From Ectocarpus siliculosus (lineage: Eukaryota; Sar; Phaeophyceae; Ectocarpales; Ectocarpaceae), in NCBI GenBank assembly GCA_000310025.1, contig FN649727.1:2336762-2400761 (forward strand): 64,000 nucleotides of DNA. The letters are read 5' to 3'. A program made the translations under genes and the position numbers. The number at the start of each line of letters is the position of its first letter. The stretch's first letter is position 1. Under the pieces are notes generated by a model. It did not search any database. It had not been told where the DNA came from and saw only the letters and a program-made list of their open reading frames with translations. This document shows positions 21,713 through 46,215 of this stretch, piece after piece.

Positions 21713-23264
21713 CGTGTGTCCCTGGTACCTAGCACTGCTGGTGTGCAGTGAAGAGTGCAGTGTTCGGTGGGCTGTGGGGTCGCGACAGACCAGAGAAATG
21801 AAGTATCCCTCCCCCCACTTTTTCGAGCCCTAATCCCTGTTCGCGCACCCCTCTTTGATAGTTTGAGAGCTGCAGAGCTGCAGCTGGTCCCAGCAGCGCC
21901 CCGGGCCTGCAGGGTGCACAAGAGAAGGGTGGAGAAAAGGAAAAACGGAGAGCAAGATTGGAGAGGAACTGAGTGAGAGGATCGAGAGAGCGCACCAGCG
22001 CTCTTTACAAGGGTAAGTTTGGAAGATGCGGCCGACATTGTTGTGCACGCCTCCCAGCAGGTTGCCTTTTCTGACCTCTCGCTTGCAGTCGGATATCGCG
22101 CTCGTGCTTCTCCTCCTGCTTGCTGAACTTAGTCTGGATTGTGAAGAACTCCATGAGGCTTCGTGGTGTTGTACGCGGTTACAAGTCGACACTGATCACG
22201 TCTATATCGGGTTATCTGGAGCATGGCTTTGGCTTGAGTACAATCTTCACTTTTTTTGGGCGAAATCCTGCTGTGCTGTCTGACGACGGGTTTGAACCAC
22301 CAACGCAAGGTCGTTGAAATCCTACGCTTTCTCTGCGCTGCCCGCACCCCTTGATGCCAGCGTCTCCTCATTTACTCTAGTGTTATCGTTTCTATCAGAG
22401 GTTCCTCCCAGTGTTATCGTTTCTATCAGAGGTTCCTCCAATTTACACTCTTGGTTGGGGTCCTATAGCCAGAGGTGCTGACAAGAGCTGCCCGCGTCGC
22501 AGTGTACATTGTTTTTGAGATATGTTTTTGGCGCTTTTTTTACTGAGATACACCACCCCACACAATCTTGCCACAAATCCACGAGACTCCCAACTAACCC
22601 AACAACACGCCACCAACCATCCGGTATTGCATGCGTACAGGTCGCTTAGGATGCTTGGGCGAATTGGGGGAAGTTTTCCAACGGAGTCTTCCTTCGTAAT
22701 AGTCCACCCGAGCAATGATGCACACTTACCCACACAAAGAGATAAATTTGAATGTACCGATTAAATTCTGCCGGTACAGTATCTCATGAATCGTACAGTA
22801 TAGTCACACTGTCCACCCCACGAGAGGTGTCAACGACAACATGCTGGCTGGCCCAGAGAGTTGCCTGATAACCTCGTGACGGCGAGAATTGGGCGGCCCT
22901 TTCATATGCACTATGCTCGTATGCATATGCATATATGTCCGGACCTTCCAGCTCACCAGCTCTATTTTCACGTCATGCGCTAAGCCTCCCCTGATATTAA
23001 GGTGCCAAGCACGTATCACCGACAAACACATCTTCAGTCTGCGATAGTAAGTGCCGTGGTGTTGCGTCAAGGTTAAGAGGCACTTTTCGGACCCTCGCGT
23101 GTTTTCGGTCCTCCTCCTATCCTGCGCACCTGTCACACAGGACGGAGGGACGGAGGGGCGGACGGGCGGGCGGACGCTAAGGCCTACTACCTCCCTTGAG
23201 CGCTGCCCTCCTGCAGCGTCCGAAGGTCGGTTCCGTTGGCTTTTTCGTGTACCGCTCCGTGGAG
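21713..23264. other. Divergent spacer, PET117-like gene / PHD gene, with a tandem duplication
   Basis: About 1.55 kb between two start codons. It contains two adjacent 30-31-base copies of a unit starting AGTGTTATCGTTTCTATC at 22379-22439. A GGTTCAAAC on the minus strand near 22290 resembles a tRNA B box, but no tRNA fold can be made. I see no coding exon, though 5' untranslated exons may be here. Confidence 0.5.
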
Positions 23265-26200
23265 ATGGCCGCTATGCTGTTCTCTGATGCCGGTGGGAAG
23301 GAAGGAAACATGTGGGGAGATAACAGCGCCAACTCGAACGGCGGTGTCAGCTCGGAGAAGAATGGCGCTGGTTCTCCTACAGGCAATGGCGTACCTGCCG
23401 CCGGAGCATTTGCGACATGCCACGCTTGCACCACGGCCCGAGTTTCCCGTAGTGTGACGTGCCAGGGTTGCGAAAAAACGTTCCACTGGACGTGCATGGG
23501 GTTCTACGAACACAAGTACCAGAGGCCAGGACCCAACTGGAGGTGCAAGGACTGCAAAACGGCCGAAGCTGGTGGAGGAGGAGAGGCAGCATCTCCAGCA
23601 GCGCTGGCGACTCAGGCAGTGCAATTGCCGGAGTCAGGAGAAGCGATAGATGTGGATGACTCCCTGGCAACCTCGCCGGAAACCGTGCCTCCGGCAGCAG
23701 CCGTTCCAACTGAGACGGTTACATCATCGGTGGCGGTTGCGTCCCCGTCGGCGCCGGCGCCGGCAGCTACACCTCCGGTAGAGGTGGCAGCGCCGGCTGC
23801 CCCGACTGTACCGTCGTCTACGGGCGAGCGTATCTGCCCGGTTTGCAAGAAGGGCCTTGGCCGAAAGCGGACCATGGACTGCAGCGTGTGTCGCACACCG
23901 TCGCACGCGGGGTGCGTCAACGTCAGGGGCGCCGAGACGCCAAAGAGCTGGGTATGCCGTGATTGTAAGCCGGGTGCCCAGACGACCGCGGGAGGGTATC
24001 CAGGGGATGGAGCGGGGGCGAGAGCAGCGAGGCCACCGGTCGCAGCGCAAACGGTGAGTGTGGGGTCGGTGGCGTGCCGAGGGTCGACCTTGCTCTCGAT
24101 CCAAATCCAGAAGTAGCGCTTGGGGGTTTGTGTGTGGCGCACGGGGGCGGAATGAAACGGGCGAGCAGGTTGAGTCAGCCGGGTGTGGCGTCAATCTCAC
24201 ACACGTTTGCATAGCTCATGGTCTGAGTTGAAGCTACGGCTCAGCCTTGCAAAACATGACCGGGAAATCACACCAGAGAGATCGAGATAATTAGATGCAA
24301 CGGGGGATGAACCACAACCTTTTGAGTATTCACCTCATAGTCTAGACGTTTGACGTATTTGAAGTTTGACACCTTGAGCTCGTATGGATGATGTGGTAAA
24401 CTCTTTTTTTGGTCTAGTGCACCACTCCCGCAGCACACCAAACCAGTCCTTTTTCGCTCACACTCTTGGGACCCCCTCGAAATGTGTTGTCCTATTGTCT
24501 GCTGGTGTGTCCGCGACAGCGTCCTCTTGTCGCCTCGGCTCCTCCTCAAGCTCCTCAAGCTCCTCCTCCTGAGGACTTGCTGGGTCACCTCATCCACCAA
24601 AGGCCGCGCTCCCGCCAGAAACAGTCGATTTCTCCCATAGTCTCCACAGCAACCCTGGCTTATCGCCGCGATGAGAGTGCCTCACGTGGCGCCAGCGGCA
24701 GCGACAGCGTTGGAGTGCTTGGCGAAGACTTGCCCGACTTCGAAGGGTCGGGGGAAGAGACTGACTCGGACCAGGACAGGAGGTCTCCGCGCTCTAGTGC
24801 GGCGGCCAAGGTTGCGGAGACGGCGGCGAAGGAGCTTGTGGCGACGGCCAAACTAGAATCGCTGATGAGTCAGCGGGACAAGGTGATGGGCGGCATGGGG
24901 GTGGCTACGGCCGCTGCGTCTGGGAAAGAGGGACGTGAAACAGGAGGGAGTATATCGGCAGGGTCGGGAGCAGCAGCCGAAAAAGGCGAGGGTGAAGACC
25001 ACGGTCGTGACGCGCCCGCGGAAGGCGTCGAAGATAGCTCCCCGTCTCCCAGAAGATCCCAGCGGAAGGGCGCTGCTCAGCAGGAACCACCGCCTCCGCC
25101 GGCAGTAGAACCACCGAGCGCGTTACTGCCGGTGCCCCCGCTGCCGGGATTTTCTTCGCAATCTTCCTCGCCGAACCCTACGGCCACGCCTGAGGCCAGC
25201 GGTACGACGGCCACGGAAGCTCCTCGGCGGCCGCCGCCGCCTCCGCCGCCGCCCCCGCCGCCGCTGCCATCAGCCGGACCGCCGGTTTCGGTGCAGCAGC
25301 ACGTGGTCGGTGATGCGGGGGTGGAACCACCGTTGCCCCCACCGTTGCCCCCACCGTTGCCCCCGCCGTTGCCCTCGCCCGACGCGCCGCCGCCGTCGAC
25401 CGCGTCAACAACATCGTCCCCCGGCGTTCAGTTTTCATCGACGGCGAGCACCGTTCCGGGCGCGGAGCCTTTCTCACCCTCCGCGGAGGGGTGGTCTCTG
25501 GGGCACACGGGAGCGCAGCCCCCGCTACCGCCGTCGGCACCGCCCCTGCCTTCGCCTCCACTCCCCCCTCCGCCCCCTTGTCCGCCTAGATCCACCGGGG
25601 GCATCGGGTGGGCGGCCGGCGCATCGAATGCCGAGATGGAACTCATTCCGCTCGGCAGGTCGTCGTCGGGTGGGAAGGGCAAAGCCTCGTCAGAAACGGA
25701 CCGTTCCAAGGGGGCGGGGGCGGGGGCGAAGGCGGTAGGGACGGGCAGGAAGTCGTTCTTGTTCTCTGACGAGGAGCAGAGAGCAATGGAGGGTGTTTCT
25801 GGCGGAGGCGGTAAAGCAGCGAAGGGGAAGCCCACGGCGATTCCGGCGGCAAGGAAGAAGGTCAAGAAGAAGCTTGGGGCCGGGATCAAGCCGAAGGTGG
25901 CTACCGTGTTTACGGATGAGGGCCAAGCTGCCGCAGCACGGAAGGTGGGTCGCGTTGCTGGAGAATAACGCTGTCTTGCCCATTGTGTTGCCATCACGCC
26001 GAGTGTGTGCGAATGCCTCAGGTTGGGTCTGGAAGATATGTGGAGACAAGGGTGGTTCTCCTCATACGCCAAAAGGGCTACGGTACTCTTGGTATGCCAC
26101 TGGTGATGATTGTTGTCACGTTTGGAGCGAACGGTACGTGTTGCCTGTGTCCTTTTGGCGGGTCAAACTTTGCGGTTGGCACCTGCGTAAGAATACCGGT

Positions 26201-29200
26201 CCTCCGTGCTCTTGCGTAAGGTGAATTTTAGCCTTGACCGTCGACAATGTTGTCAACAGGAATCATAATGTCGATACCATTGCTGGTTCTGGCTGACCAA
26301 GCGGAACAGGTTACTGCTTAGACAGCTAGGGTGCTGGCTATCTCAGGTATTCAATGTTAACACGGTGCGCCATTTCTTACTCACTCAGTATCGGTATGCC
26401 CCTCCCTGTCCTTCGGCGGCTTGGCTGGGCGTCTTGTTCGGCGTCACAGAAGCGGCCACCATCTCCCGCGGGACCGCGCAGCCACCAGGTGTTCAACGTG
26501 AGGGAGATGATCGAGTCGATGCATGGTCGTGATTCGCCATCGGAGATTGGCAGCGGCGGCTCCGCTGCCGCGCCGCCCGTGTTGCTACCCCACAAGAACG
26601 TTCCCGCGCGCGCAACAGTTGTCGGGCCACGTACCAGGGGACAGCGGACGCGCTGGGCTCCGCCGCCGGTAGGCGTTACCGATGTGAAAACGCTGTCTCC
26701 AACAACTGCTGCTACGGATGCAGGTGCCAAGCCATCCCCCGTGCATACCACGCCTACAGGTCGGCAGGAGAAGCAAAGGGGCAAAGGTGGCGAGCGTAGC
26801 GGGAACGGTGCTTCGTCTCGCACGGTCGGAGGCAAGAAGAAACCAAACTGCGACAGGAAGAAAGATGGCCGAAGAACCAAGTGCAGTAGCAGCAGCACCG
26901 CCACCAGCAGGAGTAGCAGGAGTGGCAGCAGTGGCAGCAGTGGCAGCAGCAGCAGCGGCAGAAGCGGCAGTAGCAGCAGCAGCAGCAGCAGCGGTGGCCG
27001 GAGCAGGACGAGCAGCAGCAGCAGCCGCGAAAGCAGAAGGTCCACCCGTGGTGGGAGTCGAAGCCGAACCCACAGTCGAAGCCGAACCCGCAGCCGCAGC
27101 CGCAGCCGCAGCCGCAACGGTACCCGCGACTACCATCGGCGCCCCGATCATCACCTCAGTAGAGGAGGGGGGCGCAGCGGTGGCAGGTCGGGTGGGCGCG
27201 GCAACAGCCGTGACCATCGCGACCCTAGCAGGAGCAGCTATGGGAACAGCCGCGGCCGAGAGGAGCGGGGCCGACCCGACGCTCGCAACCAGGACTCCTC
27301 GCGGGGAGGCTGGAGCGGCAGGGGCGGCGGCTCTCGTGTCTCTGGTGACAGCAGGGAGCGGGTGGGGGGGCGCGGGTTCAACCACGGTGGGCGGGGGGGA
27401 GTGTGGTGGCCAGGAGAGGGCAGAGGAGAGCAGTTGTTTGCGAAGCGGGCCGAGTCAAGCATGGCAAGGAAGGGCGGTGGTAGTGGCGGGCGTGCCCAGC
27501 ACGTCCGAGGGAACAGCTACGACAAGGACTCGCGTGGGGGGAGAGGTGCTTGCCGTGACCGCTCAGGTCCCGGTCGTTCTAAGGACTTCGAGGCCAGCGA
27601 CCCCTACGGGCGTGATCCACGCGGCGGGGGCAGTAGCAGCGGCGACCGCAACCGGAGCAAGAGCTCCGAGAGGCGGGGGAGGGGGCGAGACATTGACGAG
27701 GACGTCATGCGCGCCAGACGTAAATACAGCGGTGGAGAGGTTCGGTCTCCAGAAGCTACCCCTCGTCGCCAAGACGCACGCCGGCGTCCAGAGACTCCTG
27801 CCGCAGGATCCACAAAGTCGAAGCCTTCGCCACGAGGCCGGGCGTCTCTCACTCCGCTGAAAAGCGCGGGCTCGAGCACGGATCACCATCTTGAAGGAGC
27901 AACCGATGGCAGCGCTTCGCGGGGCCGAGGGACCAAAGGCCACCAGCCCGTGCACGCGCCCAACACCATCTGTGCGCAGTTCGACCAAGTACCCTTGCCA
28001 CCTTCCATCGGGTACAACGGCATGGGCGGCGACGACTTTATTTCGTCCCTGGAAGATCCGCTGTCCGATTCCTTCATGTGCGGAGCATTCCCGAACGTGG
28101 GGTCTCCGGTTCGCCGCTCAAGCAGGTCCTCGTCCATCACTTCACCCTCCCGAGCCAACCACGTGTCGTCTCCTGCGATAACCGTTGGTGGTGGAGATGC
28201 TGCTGCTATGGCTAGCCCGGATGCGGCTACGCCTGGGCCGAATACCCCCGGTGCTCCGGCACCTACCACCCCCTTCTCTCCCTCCGAGCCCGGTCCCTCC
28301 ACAGCGTCGAACGAGCCCAAAGCGACTGCAGCCTCCGGGAAATCGGGCTGTGGCAGGGACATTGCGCCTATGGAAGGTGGCGTCATCCAAAGGGAGAGGG
28401 AACAGGTGTGCAACGATGCGATGACGACAACCAAGGACGACATGCACGGGGCGCCTTATTCCTCTGCACTCTCATGCCTCCCCCCAGCACCGGAGGAGCC
28501 TTCGGCGGTGCTACCGACGCAGCTGGCGGCGGCGGAAGTTGGCGGGCCGACAGCCTCCCCTCTGCCGACGACGGAGCAGTCGCCGCAAGAAGGTGATGCT
28601 GCTGTGCGCCCGTCGGTGCCGCCCCTGCCTCCCGCGGACGGCGGCGTCGAGGATGCGGGCACCGCAGAAGACGGATCCGCCTCGCCGGCTGCCGCCGCGT
28701 TGGCTGGCACGGAAGCAGTAGCGGTCCGCAAGGAAGACGCAGAGAAGGACCCTACCACGCCTTGTGCGAGCGAGGAAACGGGTGGGTCCGCGGCCGCTGA
28801 CGACATTGGTCCATCGCCAACTGGTGAGGGGGCGGTTGGAGAAGCCGTCGGTAATGGTTCGAGGCAGGATGGAGTGTCTGATCGTCGCCGTTCGGAGGTG
28901 GGAGGTGGAGGAGACGATGCTGCCGCCAGCGGGGGGGATGCAACGGCGCCGAACGAGGGCGAGGGAGGGGAGCAGGGAAAGGAGGAGGATGGGATCCAAG
29001 AGGACGAGCAGAGCGCTGGCGAACGGACACCTCGACGCTCGACCGATGTCAAGAGCTCCTGGTACTCGAAAGGCACCATGGTCGTCTTGCACTGCGACTC
29101 ACCAGCTCAAGTCAGAAGCACGAGCAACCCTGTCCTTCCGCTGTCAGACCTACTCGGCAGACCGGTGAGCAGACGACGCGTCGGAGTGTTTTTTCGGATA

Positions 29201-32200
29201 CGAGAGGGTCGGGAGCGGTGATGTCTCGCTCTTCTGGAGACAGCAGTCGATATTCGCAGCCTTTCGTGGTTGCCTGTTTAGTGTGAATTATCAACTATCG
29301 TAGACACGCCAGGTCGCCTTTGTCCGGATGAGCTGAGCTGTTAATTATAGCCTAATCTCTCCCACCGGTGTGCGCGTCGTTGATGTATTCCTCCGGACCG
29401 CAACAGGCCCGAGTCATCCGGGAACCCACTCACCGCATGGGACAAAGATATCACTTGGTGGAGTTCCAGCCATGGGAAGGTGGTCCAGACACGGTGGTAA
29501 CGCTGCGCGCGAAAGCGAAATTACTCAAGCCAGCACCTCTAGACTCCGTCTTCGCCCCTGCCGTCGTCAGTGACGGCCGTGATAGTGGCGTTTCGACCGA
29601 CGGTGGCAGCGCGAGCGCTCGGCTAAGCACGGCTAGAGCGGAGAGCACACCCGCGGGAGCCGGCGCAGCGCAGCGTGTCTCGCGCAAGACTGTAGCGGCC
29701 ACGAGGCCACGAAGGAGATCGACACGGGGAGCCATCAAGGCTACGAAGCAGAGCGTCTCCGTGGACGCGGGCGAGGCGGGGTGTGAGCAGCCGCCGCTGG
29801 CAACGGCACGAGTTGTGAAGCGCGAAGGGAAGGGGAACGAGGAGGCTGAGGAGGACGACATGGAGGTTGACGTGGAAGGGGAGGAAGAGGAGGAGGAAGA
29901 GGAGGGGGGGGAGGAGGACGCAGCAGATGGTAAGGAGTGCAGAAACCGATTGCGTGAAATGATTAGCTGGTGTGCGTCTCGTCGGTATTGATGTCACTCA
30001 GTACGCAACAAATGCATGACAGAGTTCTCATCTACAGCACCTCCCTCCCCCCCCTATTGTGTTTTGCGTTCTTCCGCGTTTTTAACAACCCCCCTCGTAC
30101 GGGTCCCTGTTCTCCGTTCTTAACGGGGTGTTCCCCTCAACCGAAAACACCCTAGACGCAATCGGCGCCAAGAAGCAATCCGCAATCGTGCATTCCTCGG
30201 GGGGTGATAACTCTATGGCGGAGGAAAGAGTTGGCAAGGGCCGGTCGAAAGAGGAGGAGGAAGAAGAGGAAGAGGAGAAGGGGCAGGAGGAGGAGAAGGG
30301 GCAGGAGGAGGGGCAGGAGGAGGGGCAGGAGGAGGGCGTCGCTACCAAAGCCGTATTGGACACCATGGCCATGCCAAAGGAAGGAGAGCCGCTTGACGAC
30401 CCCCGAAAGCCGATGCTGATTCCTGTAGGCACGAGGGTGGTCGTGAAGCAAGCCCCGGCGGAGAGTTCTCGTCCGCGCGGTTGTCAACTCAAAACGTCAG
30501 ATTTGGTGGGAAGGACGGTGAGACGTGCGACAACGTAGAGGCGTTACGATTTCACTGGAGGGCGCAGGAAGGATGGGGCATGGGAGCAGGCTACTGTTGG
30601 TATGCCCATCTGACATAAGAGTACCGAGAGGGGGTGATTGGTTTGTAAGTTCGACAACCTCTGTCTCATCCACGCCGTGTTCCAACCTGCTACCTTTGCT
30701 GCTTGTGCGTGTCAGGGCGTGGTGACGAAGATGGCGACACACGTCCAGGGTACCCGTCACCACATGGTGTCCTTCGAGCCTTGGCCGGGTGGGCCGAGCA
30801 CAACGACCAGCTGGAACTTCGCGCGCAAGCGCCTTGCCCTGTGCCCTTCCGGCATCAGCTCCGGCGGTGCCAGCGTCAGCGGGTCTCGTGGGGCCGGGGC
30901 TGCTCCAGCGAGCAGAAGAGAGGGGAAGGCCAAGGGTGCCGGGGCAGAGGCAGCAGCAGCAGAGGAAGCAGCAGCGACACAAGAGGAGGAGAAAGAGGAA
31001 GAGGGGGCTAAGGAAGGCGGACGGGCCAGGCCCACGCCTCCAAACACCGAGAATTTGCCTGCCGGCACTGTGGTGGTGGTGCGGAGTGTTGAGACCGACC
31101 CGGGCAGGACTCTGAAGTTCGCACGCGACGAAACGTACGAGGCGGGTTTCCAGGAGGTTCTGGGACGAGAGGTTAGTCTCGACCAACACTCATGTAACCG
31201 GCCGGGCCCACATGGCGTACGCACGCAGCAGTCGTGTGTCCTGTAGCAGTCGTGAGTCTCTATGGTGCTGGCTAGACATTGACGTTGTTGTGCACTTTTG
31301 ATGCCTCGGTAGGGTGGGCCGAGCTGGTGCTTGCAGGTTCCCTTAACCGATCTCGTTTTCAATCCTCTCTTGCCGGAAACAGGGTATTGTGGTCAGTGGG
31401 CCCACCTCCACAACGAAGGGATTTCGGTACCACCTCGTGCAGTACGAGCCTTGGGAGGGCGGTCCGACGCGACCATTCACGTGGAACGTCAAGGTGGCAT
31501 CCCTCGAGGTACTCCGTCGCCCCCGGACCGATTTCGCCTCAGGCGACAGCGTGCAAGAAGCGGACGTTAACATGGCTGAGGCTGGCACGCCCTGGGAGGA
31601 GGAGGAGGAGGAGGAGGCGGCGGCGCCAACCCAGGGCGGGAACGCGGCCGAAGCCGGAGCCGAGGCCGAAGCCGAGCCTGAGTCGGCTGAGGTGCCGGCC
31701 GCAGGCGGTCCTCCTGCCGCGGAAGCCTCTACTAAGACGGTAGCCTCGGAAGAACCGCTTTCGCCGAGAGGTCGCTCGCGAGCTCGACGGCACCCTTCTT
31801 CCCTGTACGGCACGACCGCCGACGGCGGGGAGCAGGGAGACCCCGGTATGGAGGAGCAGAAGTCGAGCGAGTCTGAGGCGAGAGTGCTGCTGCAGGCAGC
31901 GGCGGCGGCAGCGGCAGAGGCGGCGGCGGAGGCAGCGGCGGCCGGGGGAAGCAGGAGCAAGGAGGCCAGCGCCGAAGGGAGTAGTGGGGCCACCGCTGCT
32001 GCCGGCCGAGGCACCATCAGCAATGGTAGTGGCCAAGCGCCTGGTTCAGTTAAGGACATTCCTCAGGGCGCGAGCAGCAGCAGCAGTAGGGAGGCACAAG
32101 AGAATCTCCCTTCACACCGTGTAGCGGCGGACGGGCTGGGGTGTGGTTCTGTTTCGCCGCCATCTCGCACGACGAGGTCGTCGTCGATCTCGGCGGAGAG

Positions 32201-35200
32201 CGCGGCGGACGTCGCCGAGATCGGTGGCGCTGTTCCCGCAGTGACCGACCACGAAGCCTCAAGGAGCGAGGGCAAGCGAGGCGCAGCGGAGATGGCGGCG
32301 AACGGAGAGCCGGGAAGGCTTCGAGTGGAGGTGGAGGAAGGGGAGACAGCGGTGGGAGCCGGTTTGGATAGCCCAGCAAGCGCCGTCAAGAGAAGGCGAT
32401 CGCAGGCGACCCTGCTGCTGTCCGACGACCCACTACCAGAAGAGAGCGGCGCGCTGAACAGTGATAGCCCAGCGAGGGCCGGTCCGGCTGACAAGGGAGC
32501 GGTGGTGTCAGGTCGCTGCGAGACAGAGGAGCCGCTGAGTGCGACACAGATGGCCACGGCGGAATCAGAGCGCGTAGCCGCCGAAGCGGCCGCCGCAGCC
32601 GCAAAAACGGCTGAAAAGGAGGCGGCGGAGGAGGAGGAGGCCGCCAGGGTTGCCGAAGAGAACGCCAAGGCGGCGGCAGCCAAAGAAGCCAAAGCAGTCA
32701 AGGCAGAGAAACAGAGGGCCGACAGGGCAAAGGCGACTAAGGCCGCCCATGCTGCTAGGGCCGCCAATGCTGCCAGAGCCAAGCAGAGGAAAGAATCCAA
32801 GGCGAAGGCAATGAAGGAGGCTAGGGCTGCAGCTGCTGCAAAAAAGCAAGCTCAAGACGCGTTGGACGCCCAAACTGCGTTAGACGCTCAAGCCGCTACG
32901 GAAGCTGCTTTGGAAGCTCAAGCCGCCAAGGAAGCTCAAGCAGCTGTTGAAGCACAAGCTGCGTTGGAAGCTCAAGCTGCCAAGGACGCTCAAGCGGCTC
33001 TGGAAGCACAAGCTGCGTTGGAAGCTCAAGCTGCGTTGAAAGCTCAAGCGGCTCTGGAAGCACAAGCTGCGTTGGAAGCTCACGCAGCCAAGGAAGCTCA
33101 AGTTGCGTTGAAAGCTCAAGCTGCCAAGGACGCTCAGGCTGCTTTGGAAGCTCAAGCTGCGTTGGACGCTCAAGCTGCCAAGGAAGCTCAAGCTGCCAAG
33201 GACGCTCAGGCTGCTTTGGAAGCTCAAGCTGCGTTGGACGCTCAAGCTGCCAAGGAAGCTCAAGCTGCCAAGGACGCTCAAGCAGCCAAGGAAGCTCAAG
33301 CAGCTTTGGAAGCACAAGCTGCCAAGGAAGCTCAAGCTGGCAAGGACGCTCAGGCTGCATTGGAAGCACAAGCTGCCTCGGAAGCACAAGCAAGCGCGCG
33401 CGAGGCCCAGGGCACCGAGGAAACTACTCCCGAATCTCAAGCTGCCAAGGACACGCAAGCGGTTGAAAGCACCGCGGCAGGTGCAGAGGCGGCAGGAGAC
33501 GCCCAGGCGGCGCCTAGGACCTCCTCAGACGGGGAGAAAACGAGGGAGGAGTCTTCGCCGACGGTTGTCGGGAGCGATGTGGAAGGAGTTCAGCCTCAGC
33601 AACAGCCGCCGGCAGCCGCGGCGGCGGAGGTGGTGGGTGCCACCGCGCCGCCTTCTGAGAGGCGTGCCCAGGAGGAGCGCCAGCAGGAGGGCGCCGCCGG
33701 TGCGACTTGGGATGGGGCGAGGGAGAACGTGAGGGCGATTCGGTCGACGAGGAAGGCCGCGGCGGTGGCCACTCAAAAGGTGCGCCTTCTATTGTGGTAT
33801 ACTTGACTGCTGCCGAGGTTTCCGGGAGAGAGATTGTACTGCTGTGCGACATTGTTTTGGGCCGACCGTGCTGGTTCTCTACGGTTCTGACGGAGAGGAG
33901 TGTAGGACACAACGCGAGTGTTGCAGCACGCAGCGTTTTGGGTACCAGGGTGTTTTGGACGAAGCTGGAGGTCACGTTCACTTGCTGAGTGGGGGAGACG
34001 TTCCGACGGTTTTTGATATCGGGTGCGAAATGCAGACGATTGTCGTCTTTGTGTTGCAAGAGAACGATGCCCGGGGTGACCTCTCACTTATCCTACAAGC
34101 TGTTGCGAGACTGCTTTTTTTTGTGTAGCTCCGAACATATTAGATTCCGTGGCTTTCCTAGTCGCCTTCTTTTGTTGATTTTCGCTTTTTCCGTTTTATC
34201 CTCCAGATACGAAAACGAAAGAGTGACGGCGGTGGCTATACCGACCGGGCCGCAGGAAGCGAGGGCAAGCGCAAACGCGCCGCGGCATCTTCATCGCATG
34301 ACAACGAGCTTTCGCCCGACAACGACAACGCGCCCCGAGAGGACGAAGGCGGCGCCGGTCGCGCGGAAAAGGGCAGCGAGGACAAGGAGGTGAGTGTTCG
34401 TGTAATAAACGTTTTGCGACCGGCGGGGGGGGGGCTGGGGGCGGGGAGTGGCACTGTCAATGACCGTCGTTTTTGTTTTTGTGCCTCGCGTTTTTTTTTT
34501 GTGGCCCTGGTGCGTACGATGCCCTAGATGCGGACTAACCTGGTTGGGTGCAGTACACCTACCGATTTTCGTGGCCGAGAGAAGAGGCAATGCTACTTCG
34601 CGTTCTTGCAGCCCTGGTGATTCTACCCGTCGCTTGCACCGTGCTCGTATCGGGGGATTTCTCAGGTCCGCCCTCAGCGGACCGGATGCAAAGCCGCCAT
34701 TCCCCGAAACGTGCCCCGACCTCGGTGTCTTGCTTTCGCTTTGAAAAAACACACACAGGGCCGGGCAGAAGTAGCAGTGGAGGAGGAGGAGGAGGAGGCG
34801 AGGCCACCGCCGCTCGAGACAGGCAAGGGATCGAGCGATGGCCTTCCTGACAGCAGCAGCAACCTTGCCGATCCTGCTACTGCTGCTGTTGCGGCCGTGC
34901 CTGCCGAGGCCGCCGTTCCCTGCGAGCCTACCGACACCGGTGCCGTACCCTCTGCCGTACCCTCTGGCGGCACGCACTCGGCTGAGCATGCGCCCTCACC
35001 CGCAGTTACCGCGGCCGGGCCGGCTCACGATACCGCTTCTGCAGAAGTATCACCTGTTGCTGCTACTGATGCTGCTTCTGATCCTGCCGATGCTGAAGCG
35101 AATGCCACGCTAGATGCGGTTGAAGCGCCGCCTCCTGGTGCTGAGCCTGTTGCCGTGGCCGCTTCGGCACAGGCACCACCACGTGCTGGTGCTGCTGGTG

Positions 35201-37491
35201 CTGCTGGTGCTGCTGCTGCTGCCGATGCGGTTTCCGTGCCTGCCACGATTGAGGCGCCTGCGTGTGGTAGTGCCTCCGCTCGTTCTGATGATGCTGTGGC
35301 CGCTACTGCCATGGTCGAGGAACCCAGTGTTGCTGCTGGGGCTCCTGCTGATGCAGGTGCCGCGACCGCTACGGCTGAGACATCTGCTTCTGCTGCTGCC
35401 GCTCCTGGGAACGCTGATGTGGTCGTCACGGCAGAAACGGTCGAAACACCTGCTGCTTCTGCTGCTGCCGCCGCTGCGGCTGCTGCCTTCCCGGCTGTAG
35501 AACGCCAGGTGCGGGCTCTCGCGGCCTCGGTTGCTGCTGCAGGAGCGGTCCCAGCTGCGGCAGGGGGGCCGGCAACAGCGGGGCCGGTTGAAAGCGTGGC
35601 GGGGGCTGGAGGAGTGGACATGCAACGGTTACTGGTGGTGAGATTTTTTGCGTCGTGCGGGGTGGGGGCGGACGTTTGCACGGACACTGTTGAGCAACTT
35701 TTTTGACAGTCTCACGTTAAGGTGCCTCTCAAGTTTTGAAGTATTTGGTTTGGAATGCAAGGCAATGGTTGTTTGTTCCCTCTCGCCCTCAAGCCCCCTT
35801 CCAGCTCTCCGGTTTATGCGACGTTGTCACTGACGGAACAGTTCGATACTTGTACGCCGCAAACACGTTCAAAATCGATGCCCTACCTACCTATAAACCC
35901 GCCTCCTGCTCGCGCTGTTGTTTATTGCCTGGCACTGAGACTCACGCTCGCATACTCCGAATGCAATCGGCAGATGGTACAGGGGCTGCAAGAAGACATG
36001 CAAGGTGTGAAGACACAGCTCAAGAGGCGCCGCAGCAGCGGCGCCAACGAGGAAGTCGGCCGCGCCAGGCATCGTAGAGCGCGTCGGAGCTCGAAGGGCT
36101 CGCCGCCATCGTCGTCATCCCGAGCACGCCACGAGAAACGCGGCCGGTCGGCTTCCCCGCCCTCCGCTACCGACTCGGACCACAGCGACCACTCGTCCTC
36201 GGGCGGGTGGTTCAGCTCCGGCGACGAAGGGCGAAGGCGCGGCGGGGGCAAGGGGGGCGGCAACAGCAAGGGTTATCGGGATGCACACCACCACCATCGC
36301 AGATCCTCCGCACCGGCCAGGCGTAATCATGCCGCGGAGCAGGGGTACTACCCGTACGCCGCGCCCGCTGGCGCCTACCCTTACGCGGCGCCACCGCTAC
36401 CGCCGGGATACTTCCACTACCCCAGAGGGCCTCCTCTTCAGGGCGGCGCGGTGCCGGGCTACCCATCTATGTACCCCGGGCTGGTCTACGGCCAAGGTCA
36501 AGGCCGGCCTGACGGCAGCGGAAGGGGCCCCGTCGAGTGGGAAGGAGGAGGAGGGCAGCACCGTTTCGAGCGGCACCGGCACCGGCGAAGCGAGTCGGAG
36601 CACAGCCAGCAGCGGGACCACCGCTTGTTGAGCGATGATGGGGCTAGGGGGAGGTCGGCCTCATCGCCGGTCAAGGACGACGAGGATGACGTCAACAACC
36701 CCAGAGCCGCTGCCACTGCCGGTCCGCGTGCTGCCGACCTTCCGGACCCCGCTGTTGCCGAGGAGCAAGCGGCAACAACAGCAGCAACAGCAGAGTCGTC
36801 CGAGAGATGCAAGGCGGGCGACGGCGGCGCCGAAAGCGACGGAGGAAGCAGGGCGGCGGCGGCGGCGGCGGCCGCCGGGCACCAGAAGAGCGCCTCGTCT
36901 CGCGCGCGCGGCGGGCGAGGGGGCGAGAGGCGTTCCCGACGCAAGGATGGCTCGGGGGACGGTGGGCGTGCCGCAGGAGGAGCCTCGCGCCGGCACGGCG
37001 ACGGGAGCTATGGCCTGCACGAAGGCAGCGGCTACCGCGGCGCCGGTGGCGCCGCCGAGCAGCAGGGCGGCTTCGGGTACCCGTTGGGTGTCGCGCCGCC
37101 GGGCGGCCTCGTGGATCCGCGGTTTGCGCCTCCGGCGGCACCGATGGGTCGCGGAGGCTACCCGGCGGCCTCTTCTCCCTACATGATACCGCCGTCACAC
37201 CCTCCTCGTGGCGTGTACCATGAGCACTACGGCGAGGCCACGGGCTGGGCGGCGGGCGGGGCCCACCACCCTTACCATGCCCCTGTTCACCCTCCGCCAC
37301 CCCACCACAGACTCTACGAGGGAGGCAATGTGTCCCGCAGGCGCAGGACACGCTCGCCTGCGGCCGAGTCCGTCGAGGGAGAGAGGGAAGGCGGCGGGGG
37401 CGACGACAGTGGTGGCAGCGCTAGAGCGGAGCGGGGCAAGGGAAGTAGGAGCAGGAGCGGGAGCTGGGAAAGCGAGCACGGGGCGACATAG
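23265..37491 (+). CDS. Giant PHD-finger nuclear protein with three novel repeat modules
   Basis: Eleven exons join in phase: 23265-24053, 24520-25944, 26489-29164, 29407-29929, 30156-30517, 30716-31171, 31383-33779, 34207-34389, 34554-34616, 34759-35637 and 35974-37491, about 3,756 residues. Two C4HC3-type zinc fingers sit at about 52-98 (TCHACTTA, CQGCEKTFHWTC, WRCKDC) and 191-235 (ICPVCKKG, CSVC, HAGC, WVCRDC); PHD fingers usually read histone tails. Next come a polyproline region (exon 2), an RS/SR-rich stretch (about 869-960), and three copies of an unrecognised module at about 1594-1670, 1890-1966 and 2037-2122, with core RYHLV-x-FEPWEGGP. Glu-rich linkers, an AQAA(L/K)(E/D) hexapeptide array (about 2565-2750), an Ala-rich exon and a basic, Gly/Tyr/Pro-rich tail follow. 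A chromatin-associated scaffold is inferred. Most junctions are phase 0, so phase alone would not expose a wrong join; exon 34554-34616 is the least sure. It could be two genes. Confidence 0.65.
32850..33395 (+). repeat. 18-base coding minisatellite (hexapeptide AQAA-x-x)
   Basis: About 30 degenerate copies of an 18-base unit related to GCTCAAGCTGCCAAGGAA encode AQAAKE, AQAALE or AQAAKD in the 31383-33779 exon. Array length is always a multiple of six residues in frame. It should form a long Ala-rich helix; the charge alternates between acidic and basic at fixed positions. Strand slippage is the likely origin. Confidence 0.9.
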
Positions 37492-39858
37492 TCGACTAGC
37501 GGCCTGTTGAGGGTGCTTTTGGTTCTTTTGAGGAGCCCGTCGTGACATGCGTTGTGTGTTGCAAGACACGTGCGCGCCGGTTGGTGGAAGAGTGTGTGTG
37601 GGAGGGGAGACGGAAAGCGAGCCTGGTTTGCAGGGATTCACCTACTACCCATGCGACGAAGCGACAAGAGGGCGATAGATGACAACTGGTGTCCGTCGTG
37701 CGCGCTGCAAAAGGCACGATCAGGCAGATACGTCAAAGCCGTAGTGTTTGGAGTAAGTTGTAGTTGTGACAAGGTGCACTAGGACCAGCCGTTTTTTACC
37801 GCTCTCCGTGTCGATGAGCATCTACCTGCTCGTTTTCGAGCGGTCTTGTACCTCGTTGCTCGATTCCTGACGCAGATACAATACAACAGTAGAAAAGTCG
37901 GCATGAACGAAAAGAGTCCTTGATACCACCTCGGTTCTGTGAATTTTGCGGTCGACAGTTGTCGGGAATTTTTTTTCTGGGTCGTTTTGGGGTTCATACC
38001 GTAGAAGTGTTTGGTCCACACTGTGCTCGGGTAATTTTGTTGTTTGTTGTTTGTTTTTGTAGGCTCGGTGTATCGTGCTCTCGTTCGCGCCACTCGTCAA
38101 AGTGTACTCTCGTCCGAATCCTTTTTTCTACGAAGTGATCGGTAGATGGGAACGGATTTGTTCGCCTTTGACGTTGGGCAATGTTTTTTTTTTTCTCATG
38201 TATGTTGAGGGCGTACACCATCGCGGTCTGTGTCGCGGGAGGGTTTAGACTGAAAATCGGGGTTGACGGATCGGTGTGATTCCATCATACGTTTGTGTGT
38301 TGCTTGTGGTGATGTGCTTCAAGTCACGCATGTTGGTCGGCTCTCCCGTCGCCGGCAGGCGATTTCTCAAGCTGTCGGTAGCGACAGCGGCTTGAGCTCG
38401 CTCGCGAGGATTCTTGGTAATTGGCAAGTTGGACTTGATGGCGGTATTGACTGGTTTTAGATCTGGCGCCCGAGCTGGGGGTCTGGCGGGGGTGGTTCGA
38501 TGTCTTGCGTACGTGTCTTGGTGGTGGGTTCTCTTCTTGAAAGTCTCGTCACCCAGCTTGAGCTCCAGTCGAAAAATTGTTGGTCGCGAAAGAAAGGTAG
38601 ATTGAGTCTCACGTACAACAAGTGTTATTTACGCGGGAGACTTGCGTTTCTCGTTTTTTTCAGTTTTTTTGTCGCATGCGGATAGGTAGGTACGCGGGCA
38701 CACGTTTCTTTTTTGTGCTGGTTTTGTCCGCTCTGACTGTGTTTCACATGGAAGGTTTTGCAACCACCCGTCGTGCTTGAGAGATCCGTCACAGGACACT
38801 CAACGACTTTTGCCTGATCGTGTCGATCAGGCCGCTTCTGCGACAAACAAATCGATTCCCCGGAAATGGTTCACCACAAGGCGTGTGACTGTAATTTTTG
38901 TTTCGCTTGCAGAGCGAACAGTGTGATGACGGCAGGCATTTTTTTCGACGCATGCTCTCGGCTGCACTTCCGTCAAGAGGATTGTTTACACATGTCACCC
39001 CATTGTGCTTTCGGCCGATCAATGCAGGTCATTCGCGTTTACCGGCTACTGGGTAAAGAACTCTCTTTTTTACACAAGAACTGCACACACACGTGGGTCG
39101 AATAATCAGTGCCAAGAGAGCGCCAAAATGTCGCCACGCGTTCTGTTACACTTGCTCCCGCCGCACCCACCTCTACTCAACCACTCCGCAATACTTGAGC
39201 GAAGGCCTTGTTCTGCACAATAATTCACGTGACCCCCAAAGTATACCGTGGCGCAGCAGTTATCACCCAAGCAACGAAGTATCGGTCAGCGTTTAGGAAC
39301 TTGGTTCACTCGCCCGCGCATCGAAACACCGCATTAATATTGAACATGAAACAAGAGCACATCAATCAACTTCATTTACGCATTCGCACCATGTACACCG
39401 GAATATTTCAGCACCCGAAAGGAAGACCATCACTTGCCAACCCCTCGGGACACAACTCCTCCATGCTGTGATGTGATGCTCTCATTATTTACGGCTATAT
39501 ATAGGAAAGACCCGCTAAAGTACACCCTGACCAACACGACACATGGCACAGATTTACCGAGACGACAAGAGAGAAGGCAGACAAAGAAAACAGCATACCA
39601 CACGTTACAAACGAGAACAGCAACATGCCTGACGTTACACCGGATGGTTGTGCGCTCTTTCCAAGGGACTCGCAAAAAAGGCTGAAAGCGAGCGATCCGA
39701 CGACGATGAACACTCGACGACGACCCTCCTACGAGCCTCCTCACAAAACCATCCAACCCCGACACGGCCGCGCAGAGGAAACGCCGTTGGCTGCCATAAA
39801 AACGATACCTCCGTCAAGTACCACGATCTTACATGTGGGAACAAACACGGTTCTCCTT
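37492..39858. other. Convergent spacer between the PHD and BRCT genes
   Basis: About 2.4 kb between two stop codons, T-rich on the plus strand (37.9-38.7 kb) and A/C-rich near 39.3-39.8 kb. That switch matches two facing 3' untranslated regions. No splice-supported coding exon is visible. Confidence 0.5.
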
Positions 39859-40723
39859 CTAATACGGGAGGAAATAAATGGTACTGTCGTTAAAGGCGTA
39901 GTGGTTGGCCTTCGTCATGTGCTCCTTGGGCAGTAAGAGAACGCGGCCCCCGAGCACATCATCGTCCAACTCTTCCTCTTCCTCCCCTTTCTCTCCGCCG
40001 GGAGCAACCAAGATCTTGGGACCGTCGCCACGCTTCATCGGGGTCACCGTCACCTTCACCTTCCCCCCCGCCTCCCGCCGAAACGAAACAACGCGTGCCA
40101 CCGCCGGAGGAACGTCGGCGGCGGTTCCACCAGCCGCCGCCGCCCGCGACCCGCCCCCAGTCCCCGCGTCCGCCCCACCGCCGTTGCTGGACATCGCCGC
40201 TCTCTTGTCCTCACGGAGAAACACATAGTCCCCAGCGACGTACCTCTTGCCGCCCGACAGGTGCACGTAGAAGGGGTCTGCCTCACCCGATGTGCCTACG
40301 TCCCCTTTGGCTGCACCTCGACCGCCCTTGCCGCGCCTAGCCCGTTGACGACCCTTGCCCTTCTTGTCTCTGCTGCCGCCTCCACCGCCAGCGCCACTCC
40401 CACTCCCACCGCCACCGCCACCGCCACCGCCACCGCCACCGCCGCTACCGCCAAGTGGAAACCACGGACACGTTCCGGCGTTCGGGAGCAGCAGCCGGCC
40501 GTGGATAATGCACTGGGTGGCCCACTCCAGGCTCCCCGCGGGCGTGCCCATTACTTCGGCGGCCTCCTCCACCGCCGCCGTCGACGCCGAGGCCGAACCA
40601 CCGTCGGCGCTCTTAGGACCGATCACGCAGAAAACCTGGCCATCCTTGACCAGCTTCAGGGCGCCCTCGAGGGTGCACTGGCCCGCCTCCGTCCCCGGGC
40701 TCGCCGCCCCGGCGTTCTTCCTA

Positions 40724-40755
<32 letters not shown>

Positions 40756-43700
40756 CTCGTGCAGTACTATCGCGGTGGCGCCCGCAACGGTCAAGGAGAA
40801 CACCCAGTTATCCACGGCGTTCTTCCCGCCGTCCAGCCCGTCCCCGCAAAAGATTATGTTCTTGCCCTGGAACGGCCGGCCTCGAGCCGACCCGACGGGA
40901 GGCATGAGCAACCCACGGTCTCCGAGCGCCGACCGTCCCAGCGGCAATATATACCCCAGAGGAGGGATGACGGTCGCCACGCTGGAGCACGCGCCCACCC
41001 AGGAGGGGTGCACGATGGGCATCCCCGCAGCCAGCGCGAGCTGGAACTTGTGGGTACGGTCGCTGTCCGGGGTAGCCACCGTTATCATCCGGCGCAGCGG
41101 GGGGGTGGGCTTGTCGCCGTTGGGCATGCCCCCCACTTCGGCTCCTATTTTAGGGTCCCTGCCGCCTGCCACGCTCTGCCTGACTTCCTCGAGTATCCAG
41201 CTTAGCCAGCCGTCATCGTCGGAAACCTTGCCGCCGGCGACCTTGACCACCTTCCCCCCCAGCTTCGTAACGCTGGCCTCGAGCTCGCTCCGCATTTCGC
41301 CCCGAAGGCCCGTGAGGACAACACCCAGCCCGGAGAAAGGGCCTACGTTGATCCGGCGACTCGACGACCGAACACCGGGGGTCGCAGTCAGCGATCGCTG
41401 TATTTTTTTTCTAGCAACGCTGCCGCCGCCGCCGCCGCTGCCGCCGCCTGGTGCGCTTGACGAAGAATTGGGAGGCGAGCGTGCGACCTTCCTCTTTGGG
41501 GTTCCGTTTGCCAAGCCTCCGGTGACTTCGCCGTTGCCATTGCTGGCTCCGCCGCCGCCGCCGCCGCCGCTACTGCTGCCACCGCTGGTCCTAGCAGAGC
41601 CATGTGCTGGTCTTGGGGCCGACCTGCTACCCTGCGGGCGCTTGCTGCCACTCTCACGCGCGCGCACCTCTTCCTGTCCCGTAATCGCGGCATCTCTCGG
41701 AGCCCCTGCGGATCCACCGCCCGTATCCCTACCACCCGCGGATACATCCGCCGTCGCCGGCGCACCAGCAGTTGCGGAACTCCCGCCGCCAGCCTTGCGA
41801 CTTCCTACCTCTGCCATGTTGATCGCAGACGCTAGCTCAAACTGCGGTTGAGTCGGGGCATCGTCCATGTCATAGTCTCTGTCGCCGTCCGAATTGTCCT
41901 CACCTCCCATCTCTAGGCCCTGCTCGCTGCCCTCGCCGCCACCACGAGGCTTCCTGGACGACCGCTTCGCGACGCCGACCCTCCCCCGCTTCGTCGCAGG
42001 GCCAGGCGCCGCGTCGTCTCCTTCGGGGTTGGTAGGGGGGCGTCCTCGCCCGCGCTTGCTGCCTTCTTGTCCTCGGGGCGCGGTTTCACGGCTACCGGCT
42101 TGTTTCTGCCCAGCGGGTTTCCCAGCCGAAGACTTCTTTGCGGAGGGCGGAGACGGGACGCCTCTGCGCCCGCCCGCCCGGCCTGGCAGGCTCATGGCCT
42201 CGACTGGGGGCGCGTCCGGCGGTGTCATGTCCCCTGAATCCGTCCGCTGGACCTTTTGCCTCCGCACCCTGTGCAGCCCCAAGCTCCACTCGACGAAGGG
42301 CCCGTTGTCGTCCCTGCCATCGACGTCAGCTTTGCCCCCCCCGTTCTCGACCGGAGGCTCCGCGGCACCACCCACGGGGGGATCTGCTTGTTTAGGGACG
42401 GACTCGAGGACGTGCTCGAGGACAGACTGCCTGGAATAGAACATGTCGACGCCCAGCCTGCCGGTCTTCTTCGTGGCGCCAGACTTGAGGTAGACACACC
42501 CATCCACGACCCCGTTCCCGTACGCCCAGTGCCACCCATCTTCCTGGAGCTTCGGCCAGTCGTCCCGCCACTTCTGCACCCAATCCACCGCACCTTGCGA
42601 CCGCCCTCGAGCAGCAGGCTTGTCGCAACCAGCGGGCTCGCCGCTCTTCTGTCCCCCGTCGCCGGTCTGGCCGCTTCCTTTCCTCCTGCCGTGACCGGCT
42701 CGCCGTTTCGTGGAAGCAGTTTGGGCGGCCTCCCCGGTGCCGGAGCCCGGCTTGGTTCCCGCAGCGTTCGGCGGCAGCTCCTGTGGCGCCGGCCCCTCGG
42801 CCGTCTGCCGCCCACCAGCTTGGGCACTCCCTCGCCCGTTGCCGCGGCTATTCCTTTGCATGGTGGCGGGACGGGCGGCGGGCGCGGCACCGCAGGGAGC
42901 ACCAGCAGGCGAGGCAGCAGAGTCGACGTTGGCCTCCGCGCTCGAGCCCGCGATGCCCCCCCCCCCGTCGCTGCTCTTGCCGCGCCGAGGTCTAGCCTTG
43001 ACGGGGCCGTCGGCACTCCGCCGCCCGCCACCACTACCAGTACCGCCGTCACCGGGGCAGCTATCGTCCACACGCTCAGCCGTCGCTCCAACGCTGCTTG
43101 TGGGCGGGGGTGCCTCTACTGCCGCTGCCGCTGCCGCTGCCGCTTTGGCCTCCGCCTTAAGAAACGCCTCGTAACGGGAGAGGGCCGGCTGGTCGCAGCG
43201 CACGTGCTGGACGACTTCCTCCTCGGAGACCAGGAAATCCAACCCGTACCTCCCGTTCCTCCCCTTCTTGCCGGGCAACAGATAAAACCACGTATGGAGA
43301 CCCTTGCCGAGAACGCACTTCCAGCCCTCGACGTCAAGAAACGAAATCATGGCCTTGTACGTCAGCCACTCAGGGGACTTCACGCCGCCGTCAGCAGCCG
43401 CAACGAGACCTTTGTCACCCGCCGCCCCGATATTCGCTCGCCCGTCGACCTCAGACGACTTGTCCGCATCGGCACCTTCCCCTCTCCTTGCACGTTTCTC
43501 CCTATTCTTCATTTCCTCGTCTCCCTCTCCCACAACCTCTTTTTCATCCTTGTCCCCCTTGCCCACTGCCTTTGCCTCCTCTTCCCCTCCGTCTTGGTGC
43601 CCCCGCCCCCCCTCCTCTTCCTCTTGCTCCTCCTCCTCGTTCTCCTCCTCCTCCTCCTTCTCTTCATCCTCCGCCGAAACAGGGGTGGTGTCCTTCCGGA

Positions 43701-46215
43701 TGGCCGCCATCGCTCTCTCCGTCCGAAGCTCCTGCGTGGTCATCACCACCTGGTCGTCGTCGTCGTCATCGTCGTCATCAGTATGCAAGTCCCGCACGTC
43801 GACACCGACAGACTCCTCCTCCTCCTCCTCCTCCTCCTCCTCCCTAACCTTCTCCTCGCAAGCCGCAGCAGCAACCCTCCGCGGGGGCCCTAGGTTGTCG
43901 GCGGGGTTCGGGGCCTTTGCCTTGTTCTTCCCCTTGCCGCGATTGGCGCCAGTGCTCTTCTTGGAGGCCCGGCGACGATCGGACTGCTGCGACATCGTGG
44001 GCCGACCGACCACTCCCCCACCGCCGTCACTACTTTCGTCGTCACTATTCATGTCGAAAATGTTTGGTTCCCGCTGGTTCGTGACCCCCAGAGACCTGCA
44101 CAAGGAGGAGAGCCAAAGGAGACGTTTGGGAAACGCGGAACGGGGTGGAATGGTGGGGTCAGAAGCGAGATTTTTGAAGTACAAACTTCGACCGCTCCGG
44201 CTGCAAGCATGCTTTGGAATTCAGGAGGCATATAAGTACAGTTGTCGAAAACAGATACTGTTGTAGAAAAGAGGCAGGCAGTGCAGCGGCGCTTGAAATT
44301 GACTATCGAAGTGAGCTAAACTACAGCATTGAAACAATCCTTCCCGCACGGATCGCGAAAGTGACTTCGAGTATGTGAATCGGCGTACGTGTTATTGTAG
44401 CCGCAAAGTGTACAATACGAAGCCACGGGGTTCAAGACTTACGAGTAGGGCACACCGAAAAGTCATTCGCAGGCCCCCCAAAAAATCGAAAACGGTGGAT
44501 CGACCAAGCTATGTACTTCACTGCTGATGATGTTTCGCAAAATCTCCCTTGACAAAACAAAAACCGCTTTGTCCTCACCTCGGCAACGCTCGCTTCTTCG
44601 AACTCGATAATGATGCCGAGGCGCCCATGTAGGCGCCAGGTGTGCGAGAACCGGAAGCTCCCTTTCGCCCCACAGCGCCGCCGCCGCTTCCGCCGCCTTC
44701 CCCCTCTGCAATTTGCGAGCTCACCCTCATCCGTTTGCGTTTGCCGGACGTGGATGCTCCACCGCCGTTGGATGCCGGAGGGAGCTCCTCCCCGCCGTCG
44801 CCTGTGCCCTGCTTCAGCTCCTCCCTACCCTGCCCGGTGGCCGCTGCGCCAGCTATCTCGTCGTCCAGCAAACGGTCGAACTCGTTCTTCTCCTGCGAGC
44901 AGCCCTTCCTGATCTGCGAAAAATCGTCGGCCTTGAATTCCTGCGAGTCTACCGTCGTTCCTCCGATGCCTGTCAAAAAAATATCTCCGTCCTCGTCTTC
45001 GTCATCCCCGTCATCATCCATCTCGGCGGTAGCACCGGCACGGGCAGCAGCGCCCACCACGCGACGCTCCTCCGGCACCCCGATAGCGAGAATGTTCTGC
45101 GATGCCGATCCTTCCCGAGCGTCGAGGGCGGCGGCGAGTCCGTTGTCATCGTCCTGCGAAGCGGAAGCCCTCGGCAGAGGCGCGTTTCCACCGACCTTGG
45201 TGCGTATCCAGCCGCCACGGCCAGCGATGGCCTTGGCCGGCGATGGCTTCTTGGGGGGCGCTTGCTTCACCGGGGCGGCGGCTGCAAGCGTCGAAGCACC
45301 AGCGCCCTTCCCCTTCGTTGCATGCTCACGCCGCACACTCTTCTTACTCTTCGGCGGTTTCGCTTGGGGCTCGCCTGTTGCTGATGCTGCTGGTGCACCA
45401 ACGCTGAGCTCTTTGTCCAGCCAGCCTTCGGGCAGGGGATGCGGCGAAGACGACGACGACAAGGGGAGAGCGGCTCGGGCCCGGGCCGCCTTCGCCGACG
45501 GCTCCGCCGAGCTCAGGAAGCCGGAGCTCGTCCCTGCTTCGTTGTCTCCCGCCGCCGCCCCGTGCCCACCAGCAGCCCCCCCGCCGCCGCCGCCCGCCAG
45601 CAGCAGCACGCCGCTGCCACGGCCGGCTCTGCGCAGCGGGGAAGGCGTCCTACGCCGGTCCGCCGCACACGCCACCAAGGCACGACCGGCTGCTTGAGGG
45701 ACTGGCGATACCGCCTGCTGCTTCGGCTGGGGGGCGGGATCGATTGTCAGCGCCGCTTCATCCTCTGCCATTGCTCCCAACGACGCGGGGTTGCGCGACA
45801 TGGTATCCTCCAAATCCTGCTCCTGGTTGTCGAGGGCGGCGGTGGGTGGGGGGGCTGGGGCGTCGGGGCTATCAACCTGTGTCGGCTGCGTTGGCTCACA
45901 TTGCTCGTTTTCCTCTCCTCCCGCACCCCCTCCGCCGCCAGCACCACCGCCCGCGGCACCACGTGATGCACTGGCTGACTCTTCTTCGAAAGCAACGTTC
46001 ATGGCGCGCGCAGCCGCGTTGCTCTCGGCGGTTGCGCCACCAGCTGCGTCCAGGTCAGTGTCCTGCGCCGCGATTTGAGTGTCGCCTTGGTCGTCCTCAG
46101 ACTCGTTTCCGCTGTCTCCGCCCTCCGTCACAGTGTCGTCATCATCCCCGTCATCACAAGTTTCTTGCTCTAGCTGAGTGCCCTCGCTTCTCCACTCCTC
46201 CTCCTCCTCCGCCAT
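39859..46215 (-). CDS. Tandem-BRCT DNA-damage mediator-like protein (53BP1/Crb2-like)
   Basis: Two exons, 46215-44579 and 44095-39859, join in phase (split Arg codon) to give 1,957 residues. The first exon is acidic and holds about ten SQ/TQ sites (EGTQL, DTQI, PTQPTQV, ASQD, ASQN, DSQE, FSQI, CSQE, SSQI), an SQ/TQ cluster of the kind phosphorylated by ATM/ATR kinases. Exon 2 has two GW-containing modules (about 790-845 and 1048-1108), poly-Glu and basic linkers, then BRCT 1 (about 1460-1590: VVLTGLRGEM, KLGGKVV, IVHPSWVGAC) and BRCT 2 (about 1617-1760: GKNIIFCGDGL, LEWATQCIIHGRLL). A poly-Gly linker leads to a BAH-like end (about 1820-1957: KRYVAGDYVFL, ARVVSFRRE, ending TIYFLPY). In animals and yeasts, such proteins recruit repair and checkpoint factors at chromatin breaks. 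That role is inferred from architecture. It converges with the PHD gene. Confidence 0.75.

Follow-up and report, generated by a model that had tools for sequence, protein, structure and literature searches.

A PHD-finger gene with three related modules

Analysis of a 64,000-nucleotide stretch of the genome of the brown alga Ectocarpus siliculosus (contig FN649727.1, positions 2,336,762 to 2,400,761 of the forward strand; hereafter the window, whose own numbering is used throughout) revealed, on the plus strand, a predicted gene for a giant PHD-finger protein in which a module of 81 to 90 residues occurs three times, each copy being divided by an intron at the same point. The gene spans 23265–37491 and comprises 10 exons and 9 introns, with an open frame of 3748 residues followed by a stop codon; its last exon is at 35974–37491. 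The model is a prediction from the DNA alone, for which the start codon, as well as every splice site beyond the three modules, was picked by hand to hold the frame, and all exons from 23265 to 37491 presumably form one transcript.

The three related segments that a first-pass annotation had placed in this protein are present at the positions it gave. Copy 1 begins with SWYSKGTMVVL...DLLGRP at the end of exon 3 (29057–29164, with the GT starting at 29072) and is interrupted by an intron of 242 nt (29165–29406, GTGAGC...CAACAG); its second half, ARVIREPTHRMGQRYHLVEFQPWEGGP..., opens exon 4 (29407–29541). In copy 2, the first half, KPMLIPVGTRVVV...DLVGRT, ends exon 5 (30407–30517) and is joined across an intron of 198 nt (30518–30715) to GVVTKMATHVQGTRHHMVSFEPWPGGP... 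at the start of exon 6 (30716–30850). Copy 3 has a loop longer by about 6 residues; its first half, TENLPAGTVVVVRSV...EVLGRE, closes exon 6 (31046–31171), an intron of 211 nt follows (31172–31382), and the second half, GIVVSGPTSTTKGFRYHLVQYEPWEGGP..., opens exon 7 (31383–31526), so that the spliced copy reads TENLPAGTVVVV...EVLGRE joined to GIVVSGPTSTTKGFRYHLVQYEPWEGGP.... As cut here, the modules measure 81, 82 and 90 residues (spans 29057–29541, 30407–30850 and 31046–31526). Their GT dipeptides are residues 1613, 1909 and 2055 of the predicted protein, and the module starts are thus separated by about 296 and 146 residues. These residue numbers exceed the segment starts of the first-pass annotation by 18–19, and the upstream parts of the two gene models may differ. 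The linkers joining the modules are charged and of low complexity, with a strong acidic, Ala-rich and Ser-rich bias.

Alignment of the three copies gives 19 invariant columns, which include G-T, V-V, G-R, H-x-V and P-W-x-G-G-P. The motif as first described, running from G-T-x-V-V-V through G-R and x-V-V to RYHLV and PWEGGP, was somewhat idealised: copy 1 has GTMVVL and, across its splice, P/ARVI, and therefore lacks both V-V-V and x-V-V, and copy 2 reads RHHMVSFEPWPGGP, differing at three positions from RYHLV...PWEGGP. The basic segment said to follow the core is evident in copies 1 and 2 but less pronounced in copy 3.

Exon 1 of this open model (23265–24053, plus strand) encodes a PHD finger at residues 52–97 (PF00628, E = 6.7e-12); another PHD-like finger, at about residues 190–236, is weaker. 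The PF00628 match scores 45.7 bits against a cut-off of 24 and covers two stretches, of which that at residues 52–97 is the best; the second finger also grazes PHD_2, at 20.8 bits and below the cut-off of 28. When exon 1 was compared with the sequences in the PDB, 14 matches were obtained at E values up to 0.1. The first finger matches, among others, the demethylase Lid and the autoimmune regulator, and the second matches, among others, Jade-1, PHF23 and PHF13 (E 0.0009 to 0.004); some of the remaining hits look like chance. Within the gene, the Pfam scans covered the modules together with exon 1, exon 6 and the last exon. Proline-rich and Ser/Arg-rich stretches lie between the PHD fingers and the modules.

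Homology and history of the copies

Pairwise identities among the copies are 29/80, 27/81 and 27/81 (33–36%). In shuffle tests of the full modules the z values are 22.3 for copies 1 and 2, 16.5 for copies 1 and 3 and 19.3 for copies 2 and 3, and none of 2000 shuffles reached the observed score in any pair. Much the same is true of the second halves, downstream of the intron, for which z is 13.8–18.3 and again no shuffle out of 2000 attains the score in any of the three pairs. For the first halves, upstream of the intron, the observed score was reached by 5 of 2000 shuffles for copies 1 and 2 and by 2 of 2000 for copies 2 and 3; the remaining pair is considered below. Profiles built from two copies recovered the third in hhalign with a probability of 98.1–98.4% in all three trials. 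On these sequence comparisons, we regard the three copies as homologous beyond chance.

The introns of the modules were said to fall at the same point and in phase 0, directly after G-R-x, and examination of the junctions (29164/29407, 30517/30716 and 31171/31383) bears this out in all three: each intron is of the GT-AG type, is in phase 0 and follows G-R-x directly. Reading through the introns of copies 1, 2 and 3 meets 5, 3 and 4 in-frame stops, respectively, those of copy 2 lying at 30536, 30611 and 30635. Intron phase alone is weak evidence of common origin, because 8 of the 9 introns of the gene model are in phase 0 and the outer splice sites were chosen by hand. Intron position is strong evidence: with 9 introns in 11,247 coding bases, the probability that both other copies would by chance carry an intron at one given base is about 6e-7. 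Since the copies are homologous and each is split at the same codon, it is very probable that a single intron-bearing unit was duplicated, as the first-pass annotation had proposed, presumably in two duplication events.

The introns themselves have no obvious similarity to one another, as judged by eye in one MAFFT alignment. Among pairs of identical residues in the copies, 29 of 77 use the same codon, compared with 24.9 expected under independent draws from the codon use of the gene; Met and Trp were left out of this test, and the 77 pairs stem from three copies and hence are non-independent. Silent sites at residues common to the copies therefore look saturated, while the core residues have been kept, from which it follows that the duplications are probably old and that selection has probably held the protein sequence.

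Relatives of the module and other features of the locus

Among eukaryotes, the searches covered the module's own genome, of 189 Mb. Protein searches with each copy gave significant matches at these three places only. The copies find one another with E values of 1.9e-4 to 9.4e-4, through their second halves only; a fourth copy diverged to a similar degree should therefore have appeared, and one that is far more diverged, or that falls in an assembly gap, might not. The pattern (F/Y)-(E/Q)-P-W-x-G-G-P has 3 matches in the genome and 0 in the control, and a looser pattern also picks up two places that are not copies, giving 5 matches in all, again with 0 in the control. When half-module and whole-module profiles were run in six frames over the window and 18 loci, only the six exon pieces stood out clearly. 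Several weaker candidates were judged to be chance matches. One, on the minus strand of the window at 56669–57220 (GTAVVLRSSPASLAS), matches the profile of the first half at E = 0.0056 and has no G-R-x after it. Others are a frame without the motif at C11:4601551 (E = 1.5 with copy 1), a frame without P-W-x-G-G-P at C475:398195 (E = 3.2 with copy 2), a pattern match at C1:7806, YFVSFESWKGG, that lacks the remainder of the module, and a pattern match at C136:107351, which was judged on its in-frame stop alone.

Beyond this genome, 79 stretches in viral contigs and 108 in prokaryote genomes fit the pattern, and none of either was confirmed. A plasmid match at E = 0.03, present in two records, is out of frame with an annotated FtsK-like gene and contains an internal stop, and was likewise attributed to chance. 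On the best reading the module may be lineage-restricted, the one eukaryote genome searched being its own.

The first-pass annotation knew no named family with the PWEGGP core, and the library searches agree with it. Pfam scans were run at E values up to 10, of which the HMMER filters remove most matches above about 0.1. They returned no family for copies 1 and 3 or for a consensus typed from all three, and for copy 2 they returned a single match below threshold, to SH3_Rv0428c (E = 0.38), which scores 11.3 bits where the cut-off is 27 and is the sole hint of a fold that the libraries gave. In NCBIfam none of the three copies was matched, and among PDB sequences the one match, to a cytochrome oxidase chain at E = 1.5, was rejected. 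So far as the libraries searched extend, the module appears to be unnamed. The string PWEGGP gave no match in the literature, where sequences seldom appear in the text, and no account of the module was found there, including in passages of PMC7784034 and PMC12477816.

Several other features of the locus deserve mention. Exon 3 contains, at 26883–27127, a Ser-rich and Arg/Ser-rich coding stretch of RS-like character, which could be a link to splicing or RNA. On the 3′ side of the modules, exon 7 carries at 32902–33391 an 18-base tandem repeat of about 27 copies, which codes for an Ala/Gln-rich array (for example, ALEAQA). A search of positions 23000–38000 of the window against Rfam, at gathering thresholds, gave no match. 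Downstream and on the minus strand, the PHD gene is adjoined by an open frame of 1453 residues (39862–44220) with a BRCT match (PF00533) of E = 3.8e-7 over the whole protein, in which no single stretch passes 0.01. Brown algae, Ectocarpus among them, carry the EsV_1_7_cys repeat in abundance; in this genome all 150 scored candidates matched it, a lower bound given that a first look yielded 880 candidates, and there was no match in 14 control genomes.

Fold and possible function of the modules

The first-pass annotation had suggested an SH3-like or KOW/Tudor-like barrel. Crude propensity sums pick out strand-like runs in the modules at GTxVVV, in the opening residues of the second half (ARVI, GVVT or GIVV), at Y/H-H-L/M-V and at VVTL, TTSW or PFTW, together with a helix tendency at the module end. 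The order of these motifs resembles that of SH3-like barrels, which offers only a lead. Our preferred reading, to which we would assign a probability of about one half, is that the protein may be a multivalent chromatin reader or scaffold with SH3-like modules. Each module would be a small β-rich domain whose most likely fold is the Tudor/Agenet/KOW kind of SH3-like barrel, duplicated twice with its internal intron inside a PHD-finger gene. In the nucleus, where we infer that the protein acts on chromatin, the PHD finger would engage a histone tail, and the three modules, mounted on flexible linkers, would add weak contacts to histone, another peptide or nucleic acid. The likely contact face would be the turn formed by P-W-x-G-G-P, along with the aromatic residue that precedes it by two positions.

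Readers of the Tudor, or royal, family bind methylated lysine or arginine in an aromatic cage, and PHF1 and MTF2 are chromatin readers in which PHD and Tudor domains are combined. The protein described here resembles PHF1 and MTF2 in uniting PHD fingers and a separate small reader-like module in one chain, but differs from them in that its predicted chain is 3748 residues long and has three unnamed modules, which lie far to the C-terminal side of its PHD fingers.

Tudor-like repeats also occur elsewhere in this genome. Long open frames with several Agenet matches each are found at C27:3539805–3544097 (minus strand; L003–L006), C11:3641176–3646224 and C153:34–1344; they encode 1767, 1990 and 485 residues, respectively, and their Agenet matches are below the family cut-off. 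The C27 array is built from Tudor-like repeats of the form GDKVEARF...W...DGTY-x-L-x-Y-x-DGDEE-x-x-V, of which 15 distinct examples were collected from four loci. One Agenet match in the genome, L002, exceeds the family cut-off (E = 1.2e-6). A Tudor-bearing Gypsy element of Ectocarpus is described in PMC12477816. Like the modules, the repeats of the C27 array are small domains recurring in a long protein, and the motif order is similar by eye (G-x-x-V-x-x-R, G-x-V and Y-x-V-x-Y). They differ from the modules in that P-W-x-G-G-P is absent from all 15 and the array sits in a long open frame, whereas each module is split by an intron; no profile similarity between repeats and modules was found, in a comparison of low power. 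In Pfam, neither the three copies nor the consensus matched Tudor/Agenet (PF05641) or Tudor-knot (PF11717).

Two further families invite comparison. The start of MIB_HERC2 (PF06701), G-D-x-V-V/A-R, is close to the G-T-x-V-V-x of the modules, and a G-x-G-T-V core is present in the matches L013 and L015; the R-G-P-x-W of L013, L014 and L015 is, however, absent from the modules, and neither the copies nor the consensus matched the Pfam profile. PWWP (PF00855) is an SH3-like reader domain often found in chromatin proteins, and it shares with the modules a tryptophan–proline motif. In the PWWP matches L016–L018 a motif of the P-W-W-P type is found close to where the match begins, whereas the modules have P-W-x-G-G-P after the Y-H-L-V segment; copies and consensus alike have neither a Pfam match to PWWP nor a P-W-W-P type motif near their start. 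Two of the three MIB_HERC2 matches (L013 and L015) end at profile position 33–34 of 66, and two of the three PWWP matches (L016 and L018) end at positions 34 and 29 of 93, as they would if introns commonly interrupted such domains at these points.

Several results weigh against SH3-like modules in a chromatin reader. The modules have no significant match in Pfam, in NCBIfam or among PDB sequences. In hhalign, their comparison with the 15 Tudor-like repeats gave 7.8, below the 12.3 to 15.3 of the best 12 of 200 column-shuffled controls, and their comparison with L002 gave a probability of 0.5%, both in a test of low power. Finally, the first halves of copies 1 and 3, taken alone, are not significantly similar (189 of 2000 shuffles reach the score); homology of these first halves is unproven in isolation and becomes convincing once the second halves, which adjoin them at an identical site, are taken into account. 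As a positive control, five random sets of three Tudor repeats were compared with L002 and gave probabilities of 3.6–19.4%, and all 15 repeats gave 23.0%. Since this control shows the test to be weak, the negative profile comparison leaves room for distant kinship.

That room is what the idea of a strongly diverged member of one of the established SH3-like families (Tudor, Agenet, KOW, MIB_HERC2 or PWWP), beyond the reach of profiles, depends upon. The motif order fits by eye, copy 2 grazes an SH3 profile, Tudor repeats and an Agenet match from one and the same genome are barely connected by hhalign, and the MIB_HERC2 and PWWP matches that end a third to half of the way through their profiles, as if cut by introns, belong on the same side; yet neither any copy nor the consensus attains a curated cut-off, and the signatures of PWWP (P-W-W-P or P-P-W-P) and MIB_HERC2 (R-G-P-x-W) are absent from the modules. 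We consider such an assignment possible, if somewhat doubtful. A lineage-specific fold that is not SH3-like and acts as a protein-interaction unit would account for the failure of known families and solved sequences to give any significant match and for the finding of only three copies in the genome, but new folds are rare, and the strand pattern and glycine placement, judged by eye and by propensity sum, are ordinary for a small β barrel; we think this improbable. Probably the module is a small barrel that has diverged or is specific to its lineage, and not of a categorically new kind.

It is harder still to credit that the copies resemble one another as an artefact, whether of low complexity in the sequence or of a wrong gene prediction. 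The linkers are indeed strongly biased, and some linker pairs beat their shuffles, as biased sequence does: of the upstream linkers, copies 1 and 3 are matched by 0 and copies 2 and 3 by 1 of 2000 shuffles, and of the downstream linkers, copies 1 and 3 by 10 of 2000. The remaining three linker pairs do not rise above shuffles (296, 398 and 1113 of 2000), and no linker z exceeds 4.2, compared with 16.5–22.3 for the modules, whose sequence is complex, with fixed positions for W, H, G and P, and whose splice sites match.

A bolder reading, in which the three copies in the giant PHD protein would represent an undescribed chromatin-reader domain restricted to stramenopiles or brown algae, with P-W-x-G-G-P as its binding turn, is one that we hold to be unlikely; it would give a lineage apparently without polycomb complexes a reader of its own. 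If the module is merely a diverged Tudor-type barrel, the question becomes one of annotation. Complex multicellularity arose independently in the brown algae, and a new module occurring in triplicate alongside a PHD finger would, if true, be a concrete candidate reader.

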